Notes under the pieces: generated by a model
Seen by the model: only the letters and a program-made list of their open reading frames with translations
What the model was told of the DNA's origin: nothing
The model's database searches: none
NCBI GenBank assembly: GCA_019429005.1
Contig: JAHYJR010000001.1
Location: 78,271 to 142,270, forward strand
From: Nanobdellati archaeon
GTDB taxonomy: Archaea; EX4484-52; GLR71
DNA: 64,000 nt
Reading direction: 5' to 3'
In this document: piece after piece, positions 28,420 to 42,434 of the stretch
How the letters are laid out: every line of letters starts with the position of its first letter
Numbering within the stretch: the stretch's first letter is position 1
Made by a program: the position numbers and the translations under genes

Positions 28420-28743
28420 ATGTATAAGAAAGGATATGCTTTTGAAAGGCTATTAAAACTTGAGCTTGAAGCTGACGGCTGGAAAGTTATAAGATCTGGC
28501 GGAAGTAAAAAACCAGATATGATTGCTGGAAAGAATGGTAAAATCATAATTATAGAATGTAAATCATCAAAAAATAGTAAAGTTTACATAGATAAGGATG
28601 AATTTGATAATATACAAGTCGTTGCGAAAGCTTTCAATGCTGAATGCATATTTGCAATAAGACAAGATAGAAAAAAATGGGTTATGGTATCTTTAGACCA
28701 ATTAAAAGAAAATGATAAGAGTTATGTGATTAATCTTGAATAG
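28420..28743 (+). CDS. hjc: Holliday junction resolvase Hjc
   Basis: Archaeal nuclease that resolves four-way DNA junctions; 107 aa, slightly shorter than many family members. The nuclease motif is complete: E9 (AFERL), RSGGS at 25-29, PD at 32-33 and ECK at 46-48. The protein continues through AKAFNAECIFAIRQ to the end. The next gene starts with GTG immediately after its TAG. Confidence 0.95.
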   Translation: MYKKGYAFERLLKLELEADGWKVIRSGGSKKPDMIAGKNGKIIIIECKSSKNSKVYIDKDEFDNIQVVAKAFNAECIFAIRQDRKKWVMVSLDQLKENDKSYVINLE

Positions 28744-29570: not shown

Positions 29571-30788
29571 TCAAATCAAAAATTCCTCTTTAAGAAATGT
29601 TCTAATTTTTACAACAACTGAATCCGATACAGACATATTTAATACTCTTGTTCTTCCATGTCTTCCACGTGATATTACTTTTGTTTCAATTATACTTAAC
29701 ATTTCAAGTTCGCTAATAAGATCAGATACACGCCTTGTTGTAAGTGGTTTAAGCCCAACAGATTTGCATAAATTATCATAATAACTAAAAACATCTCCAG
29801 TATAAATATATGGTTTACCTTCTTTTTCAAGAAGTTTTATTATACTATATAATACAACCTTTGACTGTTTTGGCTGAACTTTTACAGCTTCCATTATATA
29901 ATCAAGATTAATTTTAGATTGTGCAAAATCAACATGCTTTTCATCAACATAAAAATCTTGATCTCTTTCAGCAATTTCACCTGAAACTCTTAAAAGATTC
30001 AATGCACGTCTTGCATCACCATGTTCTTGAGCTGCAAGAGCTGCACATTTAGCTATTACACCATCACGTAAAATACCTTCACAAAATGCAACTTTTGCCC
30101 TATCTGAAAGAATATTTTTAAGTTGTGTAGCATTATATGGTGAAAAAACAAGTTCTTCATCACAAAGAGAACTTTTTACTCTTGAATCAAGTTTTTCTGT
30201 AAATGTAAGATTATTTGATATACCAACTATTACAATATTACCTTCGTTATATTGATTCATTCTTGTAAGATTATACAAAAATTCATCTCCAATTTTATCA
30301 ACTAATGCATCAATTTCATCAAGAGTTAATATAATAATTTCCTTATGATTTTTTAGTGTATCAAAAAATATTTTATATATAGATTCTGTTGGAAGCCCTG
30401 TTGGTGGAACATGAACATCAAATAAGCTTAATATATAAGCAAGAAGTCTATATTCAGTATCAGCTACACGTTTCATCTTACAATTAACATAAAGTGTAGT
30501 AATCTCAACATTATTCAAATTAGCTATTTTTTTTAATTGATCTATAACATGTTTTGTCACAAGAGTCTTACCAGTACCAGTGATACCATAAATAAAAACA
30601 TTTGAAGGTTTATTATTTTTTAAAATTGGTGCAAGAACAGAACCAAGCTGTTTCATTTGTTCTTCTCTATATGAAACATTTTCAGGAGTATAATTTAAAC
30701 TTAAAGCATCTTTTTTTAAAAAAATATTTTTTGAATTAATATATTCTGTAAACAAGTTCTCAAGAGTTTGTTGAACCAAATTTATCAC
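29571..30788 (-). CDS. Origin recognition protein Orc1/Cdc6
   Basis: Archaeal initiator that binds ORB sites and loads MCM; 405 aa. The AAA+ domain has Walker A GITGTGKT near residue 69-76 and Walker B IILTLDEIDALV near 152. Sensor 2 lies in HGDARRALNLLR. The C-terminal winged helix contains TRRVSDLISELEMLSIIE and RGRHGRTRVLNM. Upstream of the gene is an AT-rich region with ORB-like sites, the usual arrangement at an archaeal origin, and the nearest site (30818-30836) could also let the protein regulate its own gene. Confidence 0.95.
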   Translation of the reverse strand: MINLVQQTLENLFTEYINSKNIFLKKDALSLNYTPENVSYREEQMKQLGSVLAPILKNNKPSNVFIYGITGTGKTLVTKHVIDQLKKIANLNNVEITTLYVNCKMKRVADTEYRLLAYILSLFDVHVPPTGLPTESIYKIFFDTLKNHKEIIILTLDEIDALVDKIGDEFLYNLTRMNQYNEGNIVIVGISNNLTFTEKLDSRVKSSLCDEELVFSPYNATQLKNILSDRAKVAFCEGILRDGVIAKCAALAAQEHGDARRALNLLRVSGEIAERDQDFYVDEKHVDFAQSKINLDYIMEAVKVQPKQSKVVLYSIIKLLEKEGKPYIYTGDVFSYYDNLCKSVGLKPLTTRRVSDLISELEMLSIIETKVISRGRHGRTRVLNMSVSDSVVVKIRTFLKEEFLI

Positions 30789-31364
30789 GTCAAAAATTTA
30801 CTATTTTTATTGCTATAGTTCTATAGGAAATGAAGGTTTATATACATATCGCAAAAAATTATAAAAATTACACCCACACCCCTAGATTTCCTGTCGAATT
30901 ATATATTAATACTAATATTACAATTAAATATAACAGTGTTATATATGTTATATATTACAATATATTATAATAATTAAATAAAAAATCAATATAATTAATA
31001 TAATAACCTTTTTAACCCAATTAATAGATTTTTGTTTAATAAAACTCCATAAGAAACTAAAGGGTGAGGGTGTTATTATTAATATTATATAATTCAAAAA
31101 TCATAATCGTCTATGTATTAAATTATTTATTTATTATATAGTTTTTTGAAAAATAATTATTAAAAAATATTATATTTTTTATAAAAAATAATAATTTATA
31201 ATTTTTAAATTATTTTTAATATTTAAATCACTTATAATCTTTATTTATAATAAATTTATAATCTTTATTTATAATAAATTTATAATCTTTATTTATAATA
31301 AATTTATAATCTTTATTTATAATAAATTTATAATCTTTATTTATAATAAATTTATAATCTTTAT
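30789..31364. other. Probable replication origin upstream of orc1/cdc6
   Basis: 576 bases without a gene. It holds three ORB-like elements: GTTCTATAGGAAATGAAGG at 30818-30836; an inverted one at 30871-30900 whose minus strand reads TTCGACAGGAAATCTAG then GGGGTGTGGGTG; and a forward one at 31043-31073, CTCCATAAGAAACTAAAG then GGTGAGGGTGT. The two G-rich sites point outward-to-inward around about 140 bases of almost pure A/T that could be the unwinding element. The right end carries a 24-base tandem repeat. Confidence 0.65.
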
Positions 31365-31375
31365 TTATAATATTT
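31232..31375. repeat. 24-base tandem repeat, six copies
   Basis: Unit TTTATAATCTTTATTTATAA plus TAAA, with copies starting near 31232, 31256, 31280, 31304, 31328 and 31352. The last copy overlaps the stop codon of the XRE-type regulator. It sits at the right edge of the origin-like region. Confidence 0.9.
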
Positions 31376-32081
31376 TTTTTAATTTTAGTATAAGTGTATC
31401 TATATTTTTGATCTGTGTTATAATTATAGGTATATTTTCCATTTCAGCTATTTTTTTTGCTAACTTATCAAGTTTTTCCATATTATGTAAAACAACAACT
31501 CCTGGTTTAAGATTAGTAACTTTCATTGCAATTAACGAGCTTCTTCCACTTTTTACACCTGTAAATATCATAGCACGTTCTGTTGTTAGACCATAAAGTC
31601 TTATCAATTCAGATGGTGAAAGACCAACTATAGCTTTAATTGAATCAATTATAGTGTAACCATATATTTTCTTATTAATATTATCTTTACCAACAATAAT
31701 TTTACCATCTATAGTATCTATAAATTCTTTTAATGTTACAGGTCTAGGTATTTCTTTTATATCAATTATAGCATCATTTAATATATTTTTTGAATGTAGG
31801 CTTGTAAACTCATTTATTATAAGACTACCATTTTTTTCATCAATTTTAATTAAAGCATTTACAATTTTTTTAATCATTTCAATACCTGGACTTTTTCTTC
31901 TTCCACTTTCATAATCAGATATAACTGAAGGCATTACTTTCATTTCAGCAGCAAGATTTCTTTGTGATACTCTAAACATATTTCTCCATTTTTTAATTGT
32001 ATTATTAGGTTTATCAGAAATTACAATTTCACCCGCCATGTTTTTTGATAACTGATCCTTTGATACATCTTGTTCATTCAT
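31365..32081 (-). CDS. XRE-type HTH transcriptional regulator (COG1709-like)
   Basis: 238 aa. The helix-turn-helix lies at about residues 33-60 (FRVSQRNLAAEMKVMPSVIS, then DYESGRRKSPG), a Cro/XRE type. The C-terminal half (GLSPSELIRLYGLTTERAMI, FTGVKSGRSSLIAMKVTNLK, PGVVVLHNM) matches the archaeal regulator family COG1709, whose ligand is not known to me. It is the first gene on the far side of the origin-like region, with orc1/cdc6 downstream in the same direction. Confidence 0.8.
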   Translation of the reverse strand: MNEQDVSKDQLSKNMAGEIVISDKPNNTIKKWRNMFRVSQRNLAAEMKVMPSVISDYESGRRKSPGIEMIKKIVNALIKIDEKNGSLIINEFTSLHSKNILNDAIIDIKEIPRPVTLKEFIDTIDGKIIVGKDNINKKIYGYTIIDSIKAIVGLSPSELIRLYGLTTERAMIFTGVKSGRSSLIAMKVTNLKPGVVVLHNMEKLDKLAKKIAEMENIPIIITQIKNIDTLILKLKKIL

Positions 32082-35021: not shown

Positions 35022-36794
35022 ATGGAAAGAAGTGAAATATTAAAAACCTTTACAAAAAATGGTATTATTACAGGTGCAGATTCACTTGATTATCTTGAAA
35101 ACAAAGATATAAATATAGCTATTCTCGTAACAAAAATTTTAGATACTGGAAAATTGTTTATAACACAAAAACTTCTTGAAAGCATGTTTGATAGTGATAT
35201 AGAGTTAAATCCAGATAAAACCTTAAATCCAGATAAAACCTTAAATCCAGATAAAACCTTAAATCCAGATAAAACCTTAAATCCAGATAAAACCTTAAAT
35301 CCAGATAAAACCTTAAATCCAGATAAAATTTCAAATTCCAACAAAACGTCAAATCTAGATAAAACCACGAATTCATATAAAACAGTTAATGAAACTCACG
35401 ATAAAACACTTAATGAAACTCACGATAAAACACTTAATGAAACTCGCGATAAAACACCTAATAAAAGTAAAAAGTCTAACGACAACAAAGATTCTAATGA
35501 GATTAAAAATATATTAAAACCTATAGAAGTCCACAAAACAATATCATTTATTGCAAAAGATTATGAGGGCTCTGTGAGGCTTCATGCACAGAACGAATTT
35601 AAAGGGCATAAGAGAGATTTATCATCCTTTGTTGATTGTTTTAATAGTCGATATAATAAGATAAAGAACTTTTTTATGAAACATAGAGATCTTAGAGGTA
35701 CAAGATCAATATCAAGGTTCAAATCAACAGAAAACGAAAAAGATGTTTCTATAATAGGTATAATATCTGAAATAAATTTAACCAAAAATGGTAATACATT
35801 ACTCAGTGTTGAAGATCCAACAGGGATAATTGATGTTGTTATAATGAAAGATAAGAACCTTGAGGTTGATTATCTAATACGGGATGAGATTATTGCTTTT
35901 TCAGGTTCAGTTGCTCGCGGAACCTTTTTTGCAAATTCAATTATGTTTCCAGACATTGCACCCAAAACACCATTTAATATAACAGATCCTATAAGCAGTG
36001 TTTTTATATCTGATGTGCATATTGGAAGTAATGAATATTTAAATAAAGTAATGGACCGTTTTTTAAAATGGATAAATGATCCAACATCAGACGCATCAAA
36101 TGTAAAATATTTATGTATTGCAGGCGACCTTGTTGATGGTGTCGGGATATATCCAGGTCAGCAGAATAATCTCAAAATAAAAAACATTTATGATCAGTAT
36201 AGTGCTTTTGAAGAGCTTATTGAAAGAGTACCAGAACATATAGAAGTAGTATTATGTCCAGGAAATCATGATGCTGTAAGACAATCAGAACCACAACCAG
36301 CCTTTGACAAATCACTTTTACCAAATCTCGTTGGATTTAAAAACGTTACACTTGTTTCAAATCCCTCTTTTTTTGAACTTCATGGATTTGATGATAAACA
36401 AGGTGCAACAAGTTTAATGTATCATGGTTATAGTTTTAGTAAAATAATAGATGCAATACCCGCACTTCGTGTTAAAGGTATGAGGGAACCACAACATGTA
36501 ATGAAAGAGTTATTACGCAAAAGACACCTTGCACCTCTTTATAGTTCTAACATAATGTTACCTGATATTGAAGATAATCTTGTAATCAGTGCAGCACCAC
36601 ACATATTCCATACAGGAGATCTACATAGTTTTGCTATTGATAAATACAAAGGTGTCCATCTTTTCTCAACAAGTACCTTTCAAGGTCAAACATCGTTTAT
36701 GGACCGTGTAGGTCACCTCGCAAACCCTGGAAAAGTAACAATTTTAGATTTAAAAGAAAATAGACCATATTTTAAGGATTTTATTACTAGTTAA
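35022..36794 (+). CDS. polB: DNA polymerase D small subunit (DP1)
   Basis: 3'-5' exonuclease subunit of archaeal PolD, 590 aa. An N-terminal helical domain (about 1-60) is followed by a low-complexity linker with seven copies of LNPDKT and three of NETHDKTL. An OB-fold starts near residue 240 (VSIIGIISEINLTKNG). The calcineurin-like exonuclease has all motifs: SDVHIGS near 330, AGDLVDG near 369, PGNHDA near 413, YHGYSF near 466 and HTGDLHSF near 530. The active site is therefore intact. The repeated linker is longer than I would expect for the family. Confidence 0.95.
   Translation: MERSEILKTFTKNGIITGADSLDYLENKDINIAILVTKILDTGKLFITQKLLESMFDSDIELNPDKTLNPDKTLNPDKTLNPDKTLNPDKTLNPDKTLNPDKISNSNKTSNLDKTTNSYKTVNETHDKTLNETHDKTLNETRDKTPNKSKKSNDNKDSNEIKNILKPIEVHKTISFIAKDYEGSVRLHAQNEFKGHKRDLSSFVDCFNSRYNKIKNFFMKHRDLRGTRSISRFKSTENEKDVSIIGIISEINLTKNGNTLLSVEDPTGIIDVVIMKDKNLEVDYLIRDEIIAFSGSVARGTFFANSIMFPDIAPKTPFNITDPISSVFISDVHIGSNEYLNKVMDRFLKWINDPTSDASNVKYLCIAGDLVDGVGIYPGQQNNLKIKNIYDQYSAFEELIERVPEHIEVVLCPGNHDAVRQSEPQPAFDKSLLPNLVGFKNVTLVSNPSFFELHGFDDKQGATSLMYHGYSFSKIIDAIPALRVKGMREPQHVMKELLRKRHLAPLYSSNIMLPDIEDNLVISAAPHIFHTGDLHSFAIDKYKGVHLFSTSTFQGQTSFMDRVGHLANPGKVTILDLKENRPYFKDFITS
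35205..35459 (+). repeat. In-frame tandem repeats in the DP1 gene
   Basis: Seven near-identical 18-base units TTAAATCCAGATAAAACC (35205-35330, encoding LNPDKT), then a degenerate part, then three 24-base units (about 35388-35459, encoding NETHDKTL). Copies are almost identical at third positions. Confidence 0.92.
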
Positions 36795-37068: not shown

Positions 37069-37247
37069 TTTTAAAACCCCCAAAATACTGTTATGTTAAT
37101 ATATCAGTATAGACGTAATGGTTGATTAAACTATTTAAACTTAAATTAGAATGACTTTATAAATGTTATAGGTGTTATCAAAATATTGTTAATAACTTAT
37201 AATATTTACTAAATAAGTATTTTTTAAGTTCTTAATTGGTGATTATT

Positions 37248-40200
37248 TTGTCAGATTCTTCAAAAATACAAGGTCCTACTATTGATAAAGGTACAAGGCT
37301 ATATTTTGACACATTAAATAATCAGATTAAAGCAGCATATAGCGTTGCAGAAAAAGCAAGAGAGCAAGGTAAAGATCCCGAAAAAAAGATAGATATACCT
37401 ATTGCAGAAGATCTTGCAGCACGTGTTGAAGGTCTTGTTTCAATGATATTTCCAGATCTTATGGGTTCAGGTCTTGCAAATGGTATACGTAAACTTGAAA
37501 CCGAATTTGGAAAAAATGATGAGCAAGTAGCACTTTATATTTCTGAACAGGTTGCAAAAGACGAATTTTGTAAGTTTGAAAGTTTAGAGAAATCTCTTGA
37601 AGCCGGAGTTCGTGTAGGCGTGGCTTATATCACTCTTGGTGTTGTTACAGCACCACTTGAAGGGATAACAGCAGTTAAGATAATTAATAATTATGTTTCA
37701 ATTTATTATTCCGGTCCAATAAGGAGTGCGGGCGGTACAGCAAGTGCAATGTCTGTTATAATTACAGATTATGTCAGACGTAAATTAGGTATTGGTGATT
37801 ATGTATCTGAAGATATTGAACGCAAACGTTATGCCGTTGAATTAGAAGATTATTATCGTCTTGTCGGTATGCAATATCATCCACAAGATAAGGAAGTTGA
37901 GATGATAATAAAAAATGTCAAGATTTGTCTTGATGGTGATCCTACAGAAAAATATGAAGTTTCAACCCATAAAGGTTTACCTCGTGTTGCTACAGATAAA
38001 ATACGTGGCGGTATGTGTCTTGTTGTTGGTGAAGGTCTTACGTTAAAAGCTCCAAAATTATTAAAACGTATAAAAAAGATTGGTAAAAAATTTGGTCTTG
38101 AAGACTGGTTATGGCTTGAGGATTATAATAAGCTTCAAAAAGATATACATTCAGTGAAATCTAAATCTGATGAAGATGATGGACCTAAAGCTAAATACAC
38201 TCCATCTACAAAATATGTAGAAAAAGTGATTGCGGGAAGACCTGTAATTGCACATCCGGGAAAACCTGGTGGTTTTAGATTACGATATGGTAGATCAAGG
38301 ACAGCGGGAATTGCAGCCACATCAATACATCCTGCAACTATGCATCTTACAGAGTTTATAGCTGTTGGAACACAACTTGCAACAGAGTATCCAGGAAAAG
38401 CAACAGTATGTACACCTGTGGATACTGTTGAAGGTCCCGTTGTACTTTTGAAATCTGGTGAAGTTAAAAATATTAATACACTTGAAGAAGTTAAAGCTGA
38501 AAGAAAGTATGTAAAGACAATATTATCTTTAGGAGATATCTTGATACCTTATGGTGAATTTGTAAGTCAAGGTAAAATACTTCTTCCTTCAGCCTATTGC
38601 GAAGAATGGTGGGCACTTGAAGCAAAAAAAGCAATTGAAGATGGAAAATCTTGTGAATCTATTGAACTGTTTACCGAAAAGCCATTTATTAAACCAGATT
38701 TTAAAGTCGCATTAGATATTTCAAAAAAACTTAATATTCCTCTACATCCTGCATATAATTATTTTTGGCATGACTTAAAAAAAGAAGAGTTAAGCCGTTT
38801 AGTTGATATGGTTTCAAATGGAATGTATCTGAAAGGCATTCTAAAAATTAAAAATGAAAATATTAAAACCGTTTTAGAACATCTATGTATCCCTCATAAA
38901 GTTGACAGAACAAAAGAAGATTCAGAAATGATTGTATTTGAAGATGCTGTTGCAGATTGTTTATATACGATTCTTGGAGAACCATCTAAAGACAACATAA
39001 AAAAACATATAAGTCTTATTGAAGCCGAATCTGATGTGATGAATGCTTTAAACAAATTGTCTCCAATAAAAATTAAAGAAAAAGGTTTAACTAGAATTGG
39101 CATGAAAATGGGTCGTCCCGAAAAAGCTGAAAGGCGTATTATGAAAGGAAGACCACATGTACTTTTTCCTTGTGGTGAAGAAGGCGGAAGAATGCGTAAT
39201 ATTATGGAAGCTTATAAGGGTGGTGTAGTCAGTGCATTTCTTCCAACATTTCGTTGTCCAAAATGTAATAAGACTGTATCATTTAGTATTTGTAATTTTT
39301 GTGGTTCAAAGACACGAGAATATCGAGTTTGTAAAACCTGTTCACGTTCAACATCTGATAAAGAACATTGTGGTACACCAACATTACGTTATAAAAGCAT
39401 GAAAGTCGATATAAAAGAGCTTGTTGATGGTGCGGTTAAAAATATAGGTATGGCTGGACTTCCAGCACTTTTTAAGGGTGTGCGTGGTTTATCTGGCAAA
39501 GAAAAAGATTTAGAATTATTGGAAAAAGGTTTACTTCGTGTTAAATATGAACTTTTTGTGAATAAGGATGGAACTACACGTTTTGATGCAACTGATATGC
39601 CTATGACTCATTTTAAGCCTTACGAGATAAATGCACCTATTGAGTTATTAAAAAATATTGGTTATACTGAAGATGTTTATGGAAAACCGCTTGTATCTGA
39701 TAATCAGATTCTTGAGCTTAAAGTTCAAGATATAATACTCTCTGACAATCCAGCTTTCTCTGGGGCAGACTATTTTATAAAAATCTGTCAATTTGTGGAT
39801 GAAGTTCTTGTCAAGATTTATGGTTTAACGCCATATTACAATGTATCAGTTAAAAATGATCTTATAGGGCTCCTTGTTATTGGTCTAGCACCACATACTT
39901 CAGCAGGTATAGTAGGACGAATTATTGGTTTCACACCAGCGCGTGTTTGTTATGCACATCCATTTTGGCATTCTGCAAAAAGACGAAATTGTGATGGTGA
40001 TGAAGATTCTATATTACTTTTAATGGATGCGCTTCTTAATTTCTCAAGGAAATTTTTACCAACTACACGTGGTGCGGCTACAATGGATGCACCTCTTGTT
40101 TTGACAACAAATTTGAATCCTGAGGAAGTGGATGATGAAGCATGGAATGTTGATGTAGATGCAGATTACAATCTTAATTTTTATGAAGATACTTTTGAAT

Positions 40201-40751
40201 ATAAACCACCTTGGGAGATTCGTGATAAAATAAAGCTCGTTAATGATTATATCGCAAAGCCTGAAGCATACCATAGCATGTTCACACATGACACTACAAA
40301 TATTAATGATGGCCCTTACAGATCTAAATATGTTGTTTTGGAATCTATGTCTGAGAAAATTATGGCACAATTAGATCTTGCTGTAATGATATCTGCTGTT
40401 AATGCTTCTGATGTTGCAGAACGTGTTTTAGAAAAGCATTTTCTTAAGGATATAAAAGGTAATTTGCGAACATTTTCAAAGCAAAAAGTACGTTGTTTGT
40501 CTTGTGCTTTTAAGTTTAGGAGGATGCCTCTTATTGGAAAATGTCCAATGTGTGAAGGTAAATTGCTTTTGACTGTTCATGAAGGTACTATACGTAAATA
40601 TGTAGAACCTGCTAAATATTTGATGGATCGGTTTATTATTACACCCTATTTGATGCAACAGTTTGCTTTTCTTGAATTTGAAATAGATTCGCTTTTTGGG
40701 AAAAAGGCGCGTCAGCTGAATCTTATTAGTTTTAATAAGTCAAAAGATTAA
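37248..40751 (+). CDS. polC: DNA polymerase D large subunit (DP2)
   Basis: Catalytic subunit of archaeal PolD, 1,167 aa from the TTG at 37248. I chose this start because GGTG lies six bases before it; in-frame TTG and GTG codons at 37236 and 37239 would place the GGTG inside the gene. Family landmarks: SGPIRSAGGTASAM near residue 150, PGKPGGFRLRYGRSRTAG near 335, zinc fingers CPKCNKTVSFSICNFCG near 670 and CLSCAFKFRR...CPMC near the end. The catalytic acidic cluster is NCDGDEDS with D916 and D918. No intein interrupts that site, although inteins are common there in other archaea. It is not next to DP1: one small opposite-strand gene lies between them. Confidence 0.97.
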   Translation: MSDSSKIQGPTIDKGTRLYFDTLNNQIKAAYSVAEKAREQGKDPEKKIDIPIAEDLAARVEGLVSMIFPDLMGSGLANGIRKLETEFGKNDEQVALYISEQVAKDEFCKFESLEKSLEAGVRVGVAYITLGVVTAPLEGITAVKIINNYVSIYYSGPIRSAGGTASAMSVIITDYVRRKLGIGDYVSEDIERKRYAVELEDYYRLVGMQYHPQDKEVEMIIKNVKICLDGDPTEKYEVSTHKGLPRVATDKIRGGMCLVVGEGLTLKAPKLLKRIKKIGKKFGLEDWLWLEDYNKLQKDIHSVKSKSDEDDGPKAKYTPSTKYVEKVIAGRPVIAHPGKPGGFRLRYGRSRTAGIAATSIHPATMHLTEFIAVGTQLATEYPGKATVCTPVDTVEGPVVLLKSGEVKNINTLEEVKAERKYVKTILSLGDILIPYGEFVSQGKILLPSAYCEEWWALEAKKAIEDGKSCESIELFTEKPFIKPDFKVALDISKKLNIPLHPAYNYFWHDLKKEELSRLVDMVSNGMYLKGILKIKNENIKTVLEHLCIPHKVDRTKEDSEMIVFEDAVADCLYTILGEPSKDNIKKHISLIEAESDVMNALNKLSPIKIKEKGLTRIGMKMGRPEKAERRIMKGRPHVLFPCGEEGGRMRNIMEAYKGGVVSAFLPTFRCPKCNKTVSFSICNFCGSKTREYRVCKTCSRSTSDKEHCGTPTLRYKSMKVDIKELVDGAVKNIGMAGLPALFKGVRGLSGKEKDLELLEKGLLRVKYELFVNKDGTTRFDATDMPMTHFKPYEINAPIELLKNIGYTEDVYGKPLVSDNQILELKVQDIILSDNPAFSGADYFIKICQFVDEVLVKIYGLTPYYNVSVKNDLIGLLVIGLAPHTSAGIVGRIIGFTPARVCYAHPFWHSAKRRNCDGDEDSILLLMDALLNFSRKFLPTTRGAATMDAPLVLTTNLNPEEVDDEAWNVDVDADYNLNFYEDTFEYKPPWEIRDKIKLVNDYIAKPEAYHSMFTHDTTNINDGPYRSKYVVLESMSEKIMAQLDLAVMISAVNASDVAERVLEKHFLKDIKGNLRTFSKQKVRCLSCAFKFRRMPLIGKCPMCEGKLLLTVHEGTIRKYVEPAKYLMDRFIITPYLMQQFAFLEFEIDSLFGKKARQLNLISFNKSKD

Positions 40752-41432
40752 ATTATATTAATTATTTTAAATTCAAAAATACTTTTTTTAAATTTAAGTA
40801 ACTTTATATTCGTCTAATAAAAGTCTATATTATCTTGCAGTTATCTTGTTTTTACTTTTCATATGAACAAGATGAACTATAAACCAAAAGTTTTATATAC
40901 ACTTTTTGTTTTTGTATATTCCACCTAATCATAGTTCCATAGGAACTTGTGGGGTCTGTGAAATTAACATTTTTTGTTTTTGTATATATAATCATGTTTT
41001 TATACTCCTTTTCATACGAAATCAAGCATTTAATATTTTAAAAAGTGTTTTAAATGTGTTTTAAGCCCTTATTTTGCTTTATGAACTATCTACCTAAAAC
41101 TATATAAAGTGTTTCCATACGAAATGAAGGGGTCTGTGAATGTAACACCTTTTATTTTTTAAGTATCTCCATATGATTTAATGGGGTCTCTATAAGAAAC
41201 GAAGGTTAACTATTTTAAATTTCTGCCTCTTTTATACCTTAAACAGTAATATTTGATTGTGAAATACAAACCTATAACTATATAAGTAGTTCCATAGGAA
41301 ATAGAGGGGTATGTGAAATTAACGTTTTTTTGTTTTCAAATTTAAAATCTAGTAAACATAGATATTTACATAGGAAATATAGCCCCCGTATAAATTACGA
41401 GCCGTTTTAAAGGAAATCAAGGGGTTATGAAC
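40752..41432. other. Intergenic region with an array of ORB-like elements
   Basis: 681 bases without a gene. Seven or eight elements in the same orientation share TTCCATA[GC]GAAAT.AAGGGG, often followed by TCTGTGAAATTAAC. Positions: 40934-40968, 41010-41028 (weak), 41111-41146, 41166-41190, 41188-41210 (weak), 41289-41323, 41363-41400 (weak), 41404-41432. The core of the first is the dyad GTTCCATAGGAAC, and Orc1-binding ORB sites have the same design of a small dyad followed by a G run. Spaces between them are AT-rich. It may be an origin, or a cluster of Orc1/Cdc6 binding sites. Confidence 0.65.
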
Positions 41433-42089
41433 TTAATATACTTCTTTTTTTAGTTCATGTAACAATGTGTTTATTTTATGTTCATTATTTTCTATTACAT
41501 CGCCATGACCTGGAAGTAAAGTCTTAATTTTAATTGAAAGTAATTTTTCAATGCTATTTTTCATATCTTTTTTACTTCCACTTTCAAGGTCAACTCGTCC
41601 ATATGTTTCCGAAAAGATAGTATCTCCAGAGAACAAAATTTGTCTTTTTTCATCATATATACAGATAGACCCATCCGTATGTCCTGGTGTATTAATTATT
41701 GTGAACTTCACATCACCAATACGTATTGAATCATTATCATGTAATTTTAACGAAATTTTTTGTTTTTTTGCTTCTTTTCCAAACATAAACGCACCTGTTT
41801 TGAGACTATCTCCACTTTCAATACAAAATGCATCTTTTTCATGTATAAGTATTTTGGCATTTGTGAACAACACGTTTGCTGATGTATGATCATGGTGGCA
41901 GTGTGTATTTATTATAGTTTTTATATTTTCAGGTTCAATTCCAACAGATTTAATACATTTTATTAGTCTTTCTTTATGTAAACATAATCCTGTATCGATG
42001 AGTGTATCATTATTTATTAGATATATATTGGGTTCCATACTGCCTGCATGAATGTATATTATATCTTTTGCAATTTTTTTAATTTTCAT
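41433..42089 (-). CDS. Metallo-beta-lactamase-fold hydrolase (glyoxalase II-like)
   Basis: 218 aa, cytoplasmic. The zinc motif is THCHHDHT near residues 62-69; a later His is in NTPGHTDGS, the bridging Asp in FSGDTIF, and a final His in LLPGHGDV. These match the glyoxalase II/persulfide dioxygenase-like branch, although the substrate is not determined by sequence. GGTG lies five bases before the ATG. The last ORB-like element abuts the stop codon. Confidence 0.8.
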   Translation of the reverse strand: MKIKKIAKDIIYIHAGSMEPNIYLINNDTLIDTGLCLHKERLIKCIKSVGIEPENIKTIINTHCHHDHTSANVLFTNAKILIHEKDAFCIESGDSLKTGAFMFGKEAKKQKISLKLHDNDSIRIGDVKFTIINTPGHTDGSICIYDEKRQILFSGDTIFSETYGRVDLESGSKKDMKNSIEKLLSIKIKTLLPGHGDVIENNEHKINTLLHELKKEVY

Positions 42090-42434
42090 TTTAGCACCCA
42101 GATAACATTTTTTTTATATTTTTCATTAAAAAAGCAATTATAATTATTACTGTATTAATTACGTTATTAATTACATTATTAATTACATTATTAATTACAT
42201 TATTAATTACATTATTAATTACGTTATTAATTACGTTATTAATTACGTTATTAATTACAAGTTACATTAAGTTATTAATTATCTTTTTGATTATTTTGTT
42301 GATTCTCTTTTTGATAATCATATTAATTATCTTATTTATTACACGTTACCTTTCTTATTTGGTTTTATTAAAATAAAAATGTATTTTTACTTTTTCAACG
42401 AAAACTTTAAATACTTTGGTGTACTATTACTAAT
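42090..42434. other. AT-rich intergenic region with a tandem repeat
   Basis: 345 bases between divergent genes, without a gene. It holds the 12-base tandem repeat listed separately, further TTAATTAT-type degenerate repeats up to about 42345, and a TATA element TTTAAATA near 42407 placed for the small gene at 42435. Confidence 0.5.
42153..42260. repeat. 12-base tandem repeat, nine copies
   Basis: Unit TTATTAATTAC followed by A or G; AATTAC recurs every 12 bases from 42157 to 42253. Located between divergent genes. Confidence 0.9.

Follow-up and report, generated by a model that had tools for sequence, protein, structure and literature searches.

In an uncultured DPANN-type archaeon, repeats resembling ORBs are crowded into the 681-bp gap that separates DP2 from a convergent MBL-fold gene, ~10 kb from orc1 and beyond DP2. 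Is this array the main replication origin, a second origin or a titration cluster, as a preliminary description of the locus had proposed? We analyzed a window of 64,000 nucleotides (C11:78271-142270), the whole stretch to which all positions refer unless a contig or locus is named, from a genome of 1.08 Mb in 15 contigs. The closest named DP2 relatives are MAGs labelled Candidatus Nanohaloarchaea, DPANN group or Aenigmatarchaeota. The comparison set consisted of 34 genomes of the order, mostly fragmented assemblies, in families coded f1 to f7, f1 being the family of the window genome. Features of the locus are listed in Table 1, with mismatches counted against the array consensus TTCCATA[GC]GAAATnAAGGGG.

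Table 1. Features of the orc1-DP2 region, in window positions.
Feature	Positions	Strand	Details
orc1/cdc6, 405 aa, presumed ORB binder	29571..30788	-	Pfam Cdc6_C and Cdc6_lid; TIGR02928, 404 bits
orc1-side intergenic region, probable main origin	30789..31364		13% GC; three ORBs (+, -, +); AT-rich repeats
orc1-side ORB abutting TATA-like sequence	30819..30838	+	20.2 bits; TTCTATAGGAAATGAAGGTTTATATA
orc1-side ORB	30879..30898	-	22.2 bits; followed by TGTGGGTGT
orc1-side ORB	31045..31064	+	18.9 bits; followed by TGAGGGTGT
DP1	35022-36794	+	tandem repeats at 35205-35466
DP2, PolD large subunit, upstream flank of array	37236..40751	+	PolC_DP2 domains; DNA polymerase II large subunit
BRE-TATA element upstream of ORB 1	40883..40899	+	ACCAAAAGTTTTATATA; pattern scan; exact pattern 3 times in 287 kb
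Array ORB 1	40935..40954	+	3 mismatches; 18.8 bits; followed by TCTGTGAAATTAAC and T-run
Degenerate ORB-like element, no G-run	41010..41029	+	4 mismatches; <9 bits
BRE-TATA element	41092..41108	+	ACCTAAAACTATATAAA; starts 21 bp before ORB 2
Array ORB 2	41113..41132	+	0 mismatches (exact consensus); 33.6 bits, top match of contig; followed by TCTGTGAATGTAAC
Two weak adjoining ORB-like elements	41167-41186 and 41188-41207	+	14.1 and 15.9 bits
TATA element	41270..41286	+	ACCTATAACTATATAAG; starts ~20 bp before ORB 3; read by eye
Array ORB 3	41290..41309	+	1 mismatch; 29.7 bits; followed by TATGTGAAATTAAC and T-run
Degenerate ORB-like element, CCCC replacing GGGG	41366..41385	+	5 mismatches; <9 bits
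Array ORB 4	41405..41424	+	3 mismatches; 21.3 bits; followed by TTATGAACTTAA
MBL-fold hydrolase, convergent downstream flank of array	41433..42089	-	Pfam Lactamase_B

Every array element lies on the + strand. Seven or eight same-direction elements had been described, and their coordinates and strand were borne out, but only four are strong and secure, two being marginal and two degenerate. The element at 41167 carries 5 mismatches, and the eighth, weak element at 41188 follows it directly. The claim that the array holds more sites than orc1 holds narrowly (four secure sites vs three). Three copies are spaced 178 and 177 bp apart and have similar flanks. The extension TCTGTGAAATTAAC was found exactly at 40955; at 41310 and 41133 it has 1 to 2 mismatches, and it is absent at the orc1 sites, two of the three continuing with GTG or GAG plus GGTGT, which agrees with the earlier statement that the array sites resemble the orc1 sites and extend differently. 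Helical phasing between ORBs was weak over 14 spacings (resultant of 0.59 at 10.5 bp, a period picked post hoc).

The common archaeal ORB motif of Ori-Finder 2 is TCCA[CG]T[TG]GAAA[TC][GA]AAGGGGT (PMC4164010), and the array elements show the same TCCA..GAAA dyad followed by a G-string. The 287-kb contig was also scanned with a scoring matrix trained only on the ORBs of relatives, with a listing cut-off of 9 bits. Its seven best matches were the four array sites and the three orc1-side sites, and the elements at 41188 and 41167 ranked among two unrelated matches. By their sequence, therefore, the array elements are ORB-type elements of known kind, as previously proposed. With up to 3 mismatches, the whole 1.08-Mb genome gave six matches, all at the array (four) or beside orc1 (two), which shows that the consensus is concentrated at these two places and not scattered. 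In dinucleotide shuffles of the 681-bp gap, 3 mismatches gave 0 chance matches in 1000 vs 4 observed, and 5 mismatches gave a chance mean of 0.04 vs 7 observed. The shuffles, a Markov null and the whole-genome search ruled out chance repeats. The orc1/cdc6 product matches 2qby_A at 6e-97 and 2v1u_A at 6e-88 and, on these matches, is clearly related to archaeal Orc1 proteins whose structures are known. We infer that Orc1/Cdc6 binds the array ORBs.

The orc1-side sites differ from those of the array. Many orc1-side ORBs continue with a second G-run (GGGGTGAGGGT), whereas the array ORBs are direct and often carry an extension of the TGAA[A/G]TTAAC type; there are thus two ORB classes. Opposed ORBs were found in most of the resolved orc1-side clusters, and at the same place in several relatives. 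The ORB abutting the TATA-like sequence near the orc1 start (30819-30845) was also present in most of the relatives read there, and from its position it is likely an orc1 autoregulation site. Between the orc1-side ORBs and a gene for an HTH-domain protein (31365-32081) that adjoins orc1, a 24-bp AT-rich tandem repeat is present in 5.9 perfect copies (31232-31372). The HTH gene is found near orc1 in f3 and f4 too, and its product is a candidate origin-associated regulator. A gene for an Hjc-type Holliday junction resolvase (28420-28743) also lies near orc1, likewise in f1, f3 and f4 relatives. Further tandem repeats in the window occur within the coding sequence of DP1, toward its N-terminal end (35205-35466; 18 bp x 9 and 24 bp x 3.8), and between the MBL and class-V aminotransferase genes (42153-42341; 12-bp AT-rich repeats, 10.8 and 5.8 copies).

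We looked for the replication origin by nucleotide skew, using third codon positions with a gene-strand term, since raw GC skew depended too strongly on gene direction; the log-likelihoods assume independent genes and serve as a guide, not a formal test. The best switch in the window genome fell in the DP1-DP2 gap (C11:115064-115506), with the orc1-side region 8.3 and the array 35.9 log-likelihood units lower, and the skew inflection that had been suggested as a check on the array is thus placed elsewhere. In the relative G002, the best switch was exactly the orc1-side intergenic region. G014 has orc1 (at 68 kb) and DP2 on one contig, with ~49 kb between orc1 and the array; its 14 best boundaries were all within 60-77 kb, surrounding orc1, although the signal was modest. 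In G010, G011 and G016 the skew was too weak to place a switch. No opposed ORBs were found in any array read, that of the window included; the array thus shows neither the opposed ORBs flanking an AT-rich unwinding element that mark an oriC nor a position at a skew switch. The GC content is 25.7% in the array intergenic region vs 13% on the orc1 side. On the skew change-point and the direct-only layout we rejected the array as the main origin, contrary to the first of the three proposals, and the main origin most likely lies on the orc1 side. Since the skew does not switch at the array and the orc1-side region is so AT-rich, the array is most likely something else.

We then compared the array with those of relatives. 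It was found between DP2 and whichever gene follows in genomes of five families (f1, f3, f4, f6 and f7), and so is kept although it lies outside the origin. All six f1 arrays read contain four direct ORBs with start spacings of 43, 61-64 and 115-118 bp and have the MBL gene as neighbor, and the internal spacing is fixed within one genus. An alignment of these six genomes showed a footprint-like pattern, in which ORBs and BRE-TATA elements are kept and spacers have diverged. In f3, f4 and f6, two direct ORBs lie 3' of DP2, 75 to 126 bp apart and mostly 82 to 90 (the latter range in f3, f4 and some f6 genomes); in f6 the gene after the array, where identified, mostly encodes a TctA transporter. 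The f7 genomes have one or two ORBs ~0.9 to 2.3 kb downstream of DP2. None was found 3' of DP2 in f2 and f5, in the flanks present in the assemblies, and a direct ORB pair, 28-38 bp apart, instead neighbors a P-type ATPase gene in f2 and an M50 peptidase gene in f5. Across the 34 genomes, 2-mismatch matches clustered at orc1, at the pair 3' of DP2 or its relocated counterpart and in the ftsZ upstream region, strays being few and control counts near zero. Among 22 more distant genomes, most good matches were near orc1 where the orc1 position was compared; the pattern is less sensitive there, and DP2 3' flanks were read in part of these genomes.

The ftsZ sites form a group of their own. ORB-like sites with an AAGGTT-type ending were found 330-430 bp upstream of ftsZ in each of the seven relatives of the same genus that were examined, the site in one being weak with 4 mismatches (L149:2883-2943, L150:3140, L151:3149, L152:2795-2836, L147:3093; ftsZ upstream regions in L159-L165). 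The site in G002 is near a divergent gatC start. Some f3, f6 and f7 genomes have similar sites before ftsZ, and none was found in the window's own genome. Their position suggests a possible link between the initiator and cell division.

We propose, and give roughly an even chance, that the array is a non-origin Orc1/Cdc6-binding cluster that would restrain initiation by holding the initiator away from the orc1-side origin. Bound by Orc1 and lying ~10 kb from the origin, the array would double in copy number soon after initiation, and free Orc1 would therefore fall just after firing. Bound Orc1 would also shut the promoters of the array, their predicted start sites lying in or near ORBs, and the array may therefore be transcribed only at low Orc1 levels. 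Four secure ORBs 10 kb from those beside orc1, their conservation, their relocation in two families and their likeness to the haloarchaeal element oriC2D make the titration cluster the best supported of the three options first put forward. Several points count against storage. Two to four strong sites would be a small sink unless affinity were high or binding cooperative, the conserved orientation and spacing exceed the needs of a simple sink, oriC2D adjoins its own cdc6 gene whereas the array is 10 kb from orc1, and titration alone leaves the BRE-TATA elements unexplained.

These elements and the TGAA[A/G]TTAAC motif are features absent from the preliminary description. Near-consensus archaeal BRE-TATA elements precede key array ORBs at a fixed start-to-start distance, 19-21 bp in f1 and 29-31 bp in f3, f4 and some f6 members, the two classes differing by one helical turn. 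The exact pattern occurred 0 to 3 times per contig examined (contigs of 40 to 287 kb). The f6 members G018 and G023 have no clear BRE-TATA element, and the TATA element at 41270 was not matched in a 2-mismatch BRE-TATA scan. If the usual TATA-to-start distance of ~25 bp applies, the predicted transcription start would be in or near the ORB. Many array sites are followed, in one orientation or the other, by TGAA[A/G]TTAAC or a near variant. Exact RTGAARTTAAC matches numbered 7 in 1.08 Mb vs ~8 estimated by chance, two of the seven adjoining array ORBs, and a genome-wide TGAARTTAAC regulon was rejected on this count. A hidden gene in the gap was also rejected, the only ORFs being of 57 aa or less with no conserved reading frame.

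The array might instead be mainly a set of Orc1-controlled promoters from which short RNAs, non-coding or antisense, run toward the next gene, with titration secondary, a possibility that we regard as unlikely. It would account for the BRE-TATA elements at their two fixed distances, for the predicted starts in or near ORBs and for the T-runs after several ORBs. It fits less well with the second and fourth ORBs of f1 relatives, which have no TATA element, and with the lack of a conserved ORF or RNA fold: the window gave no Rfam match, and only 1 of 65 predicted RNA pairs was changed on both sides in the six-genome alignment, by which a structured RNA was rejected.

That the array is an accessory or dormant origin, or else one half of a bipartite origin, with Orc1 loading MCM there or contacting the orc1-side origin across DP1-DP2, appears similarly improbable. 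The dense ORBs beside replication genes favor it, as do the AT-rich stretch at the left edge of the array (8.75% GC over 80 bp from 40730) and the best skew switch of the window genome, which lies between the two ORB clusters. The direct-only layout, the higher GC content, the skew, which rejects a switch at the array and in G002 puts it on the orc1-side region, and the ORB pairs away from DP2 in f2 and f5 argue against it. The second origin of the preliminary description is accordingly less likely than titration.

Promoters and storage could also be parts of one device. Orc1 at or near the start sites would silence array transcription, and the BRE-TATA-ORB units would be a conserved initiator-sensing device that stores initiator and becomes active in transcription once Orc1 runs low, with Orc1 acting as a wider cell-cycle regulator in the order, including upstream of ftsZ in several relatives. 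We offer this broader view as a speculation that is probably wrong in its full form.

It is very unlikely that the elements bind another protein, such as the HTH protein from the gene at 31365-32081, or act in terminating DP2 transcription. In favor are the TGAA[A/G]TTAAC extension, which hints at a further DNA-binding protein, the persistence of the HTH gene near orc1 in f3 and f4 and the convergent genes that flank the array, but the 20-bp core matches the archaeal ORB motif and the orc1-side sites of the same genome, and the pairs in f2 and f5 are away from DP2. A functionless remnant of a former origin or of a 178-bp tandem duplication, to which the copies at 178 and 177 bp with similar flanks and the decayed copies at 41010 and 41366 point, is hardly credible, being largely refuted by the footprint-level conservation of ORBs and TATA elements amid diverged spacers in six genomes and by the presence of the array in five families.

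The storage reading bears on how archaea limit the frequency of replication start. If it is true, initiator storage would not be a haloarchaeal peculiarity, and DPANN archaea would possess a compact, conserved non-origin locus, the array being a short sequence for testing binding, transcription and over-initiation.

Among known systems, the closest element is oriC2D of Haloarcula hispanica, which has 11 ORBs in 722 bp downstream of cdc6E, lacks origin activity alone and represses oriC2, likely by titrating Cdc6E (PMC3936714). Both are intergenic ORB clusters apart from the ORBs of the origin and not themselves origins, and by this analogy the array would work in the same way. However, oriC2D lies directly downstream of cdc6E with its 11 ORBs, whereas the four secure direct ORBs of the array lie ~10 kb from orc1, beyond DP2, and unlike oriC2D the array has a fixed orientation and spacing, BRE-TATA elements and the TGAA[A/G]TTAAC motif; the two archaea are unrelated. 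The Escherichia coli datA locus titrates DnaA (cited in PMC3936714) and is likewise a cluster of initiator sites away from the origin whose duplication would lower free initiator, but it belongs to a bacterial DnaA system. The orc1/cdc6-adjacent oriC of Pyrococcus and haloarchaeal oriC1 share the dyad and G-string ORBs near orc1 and PolD genes, but their ORBs surround an AT-rich element, whereas the array is direct-only, less AT-rich and off the skew switch. Sulfolobus Orc1-2, a non-initiator paralogue, acts at damage-response promoters and binds ANTTTC, not ORB (PMC9738581); it resembles the system proposed here as an Orc1-family protein acting at promoters and differs in its site.
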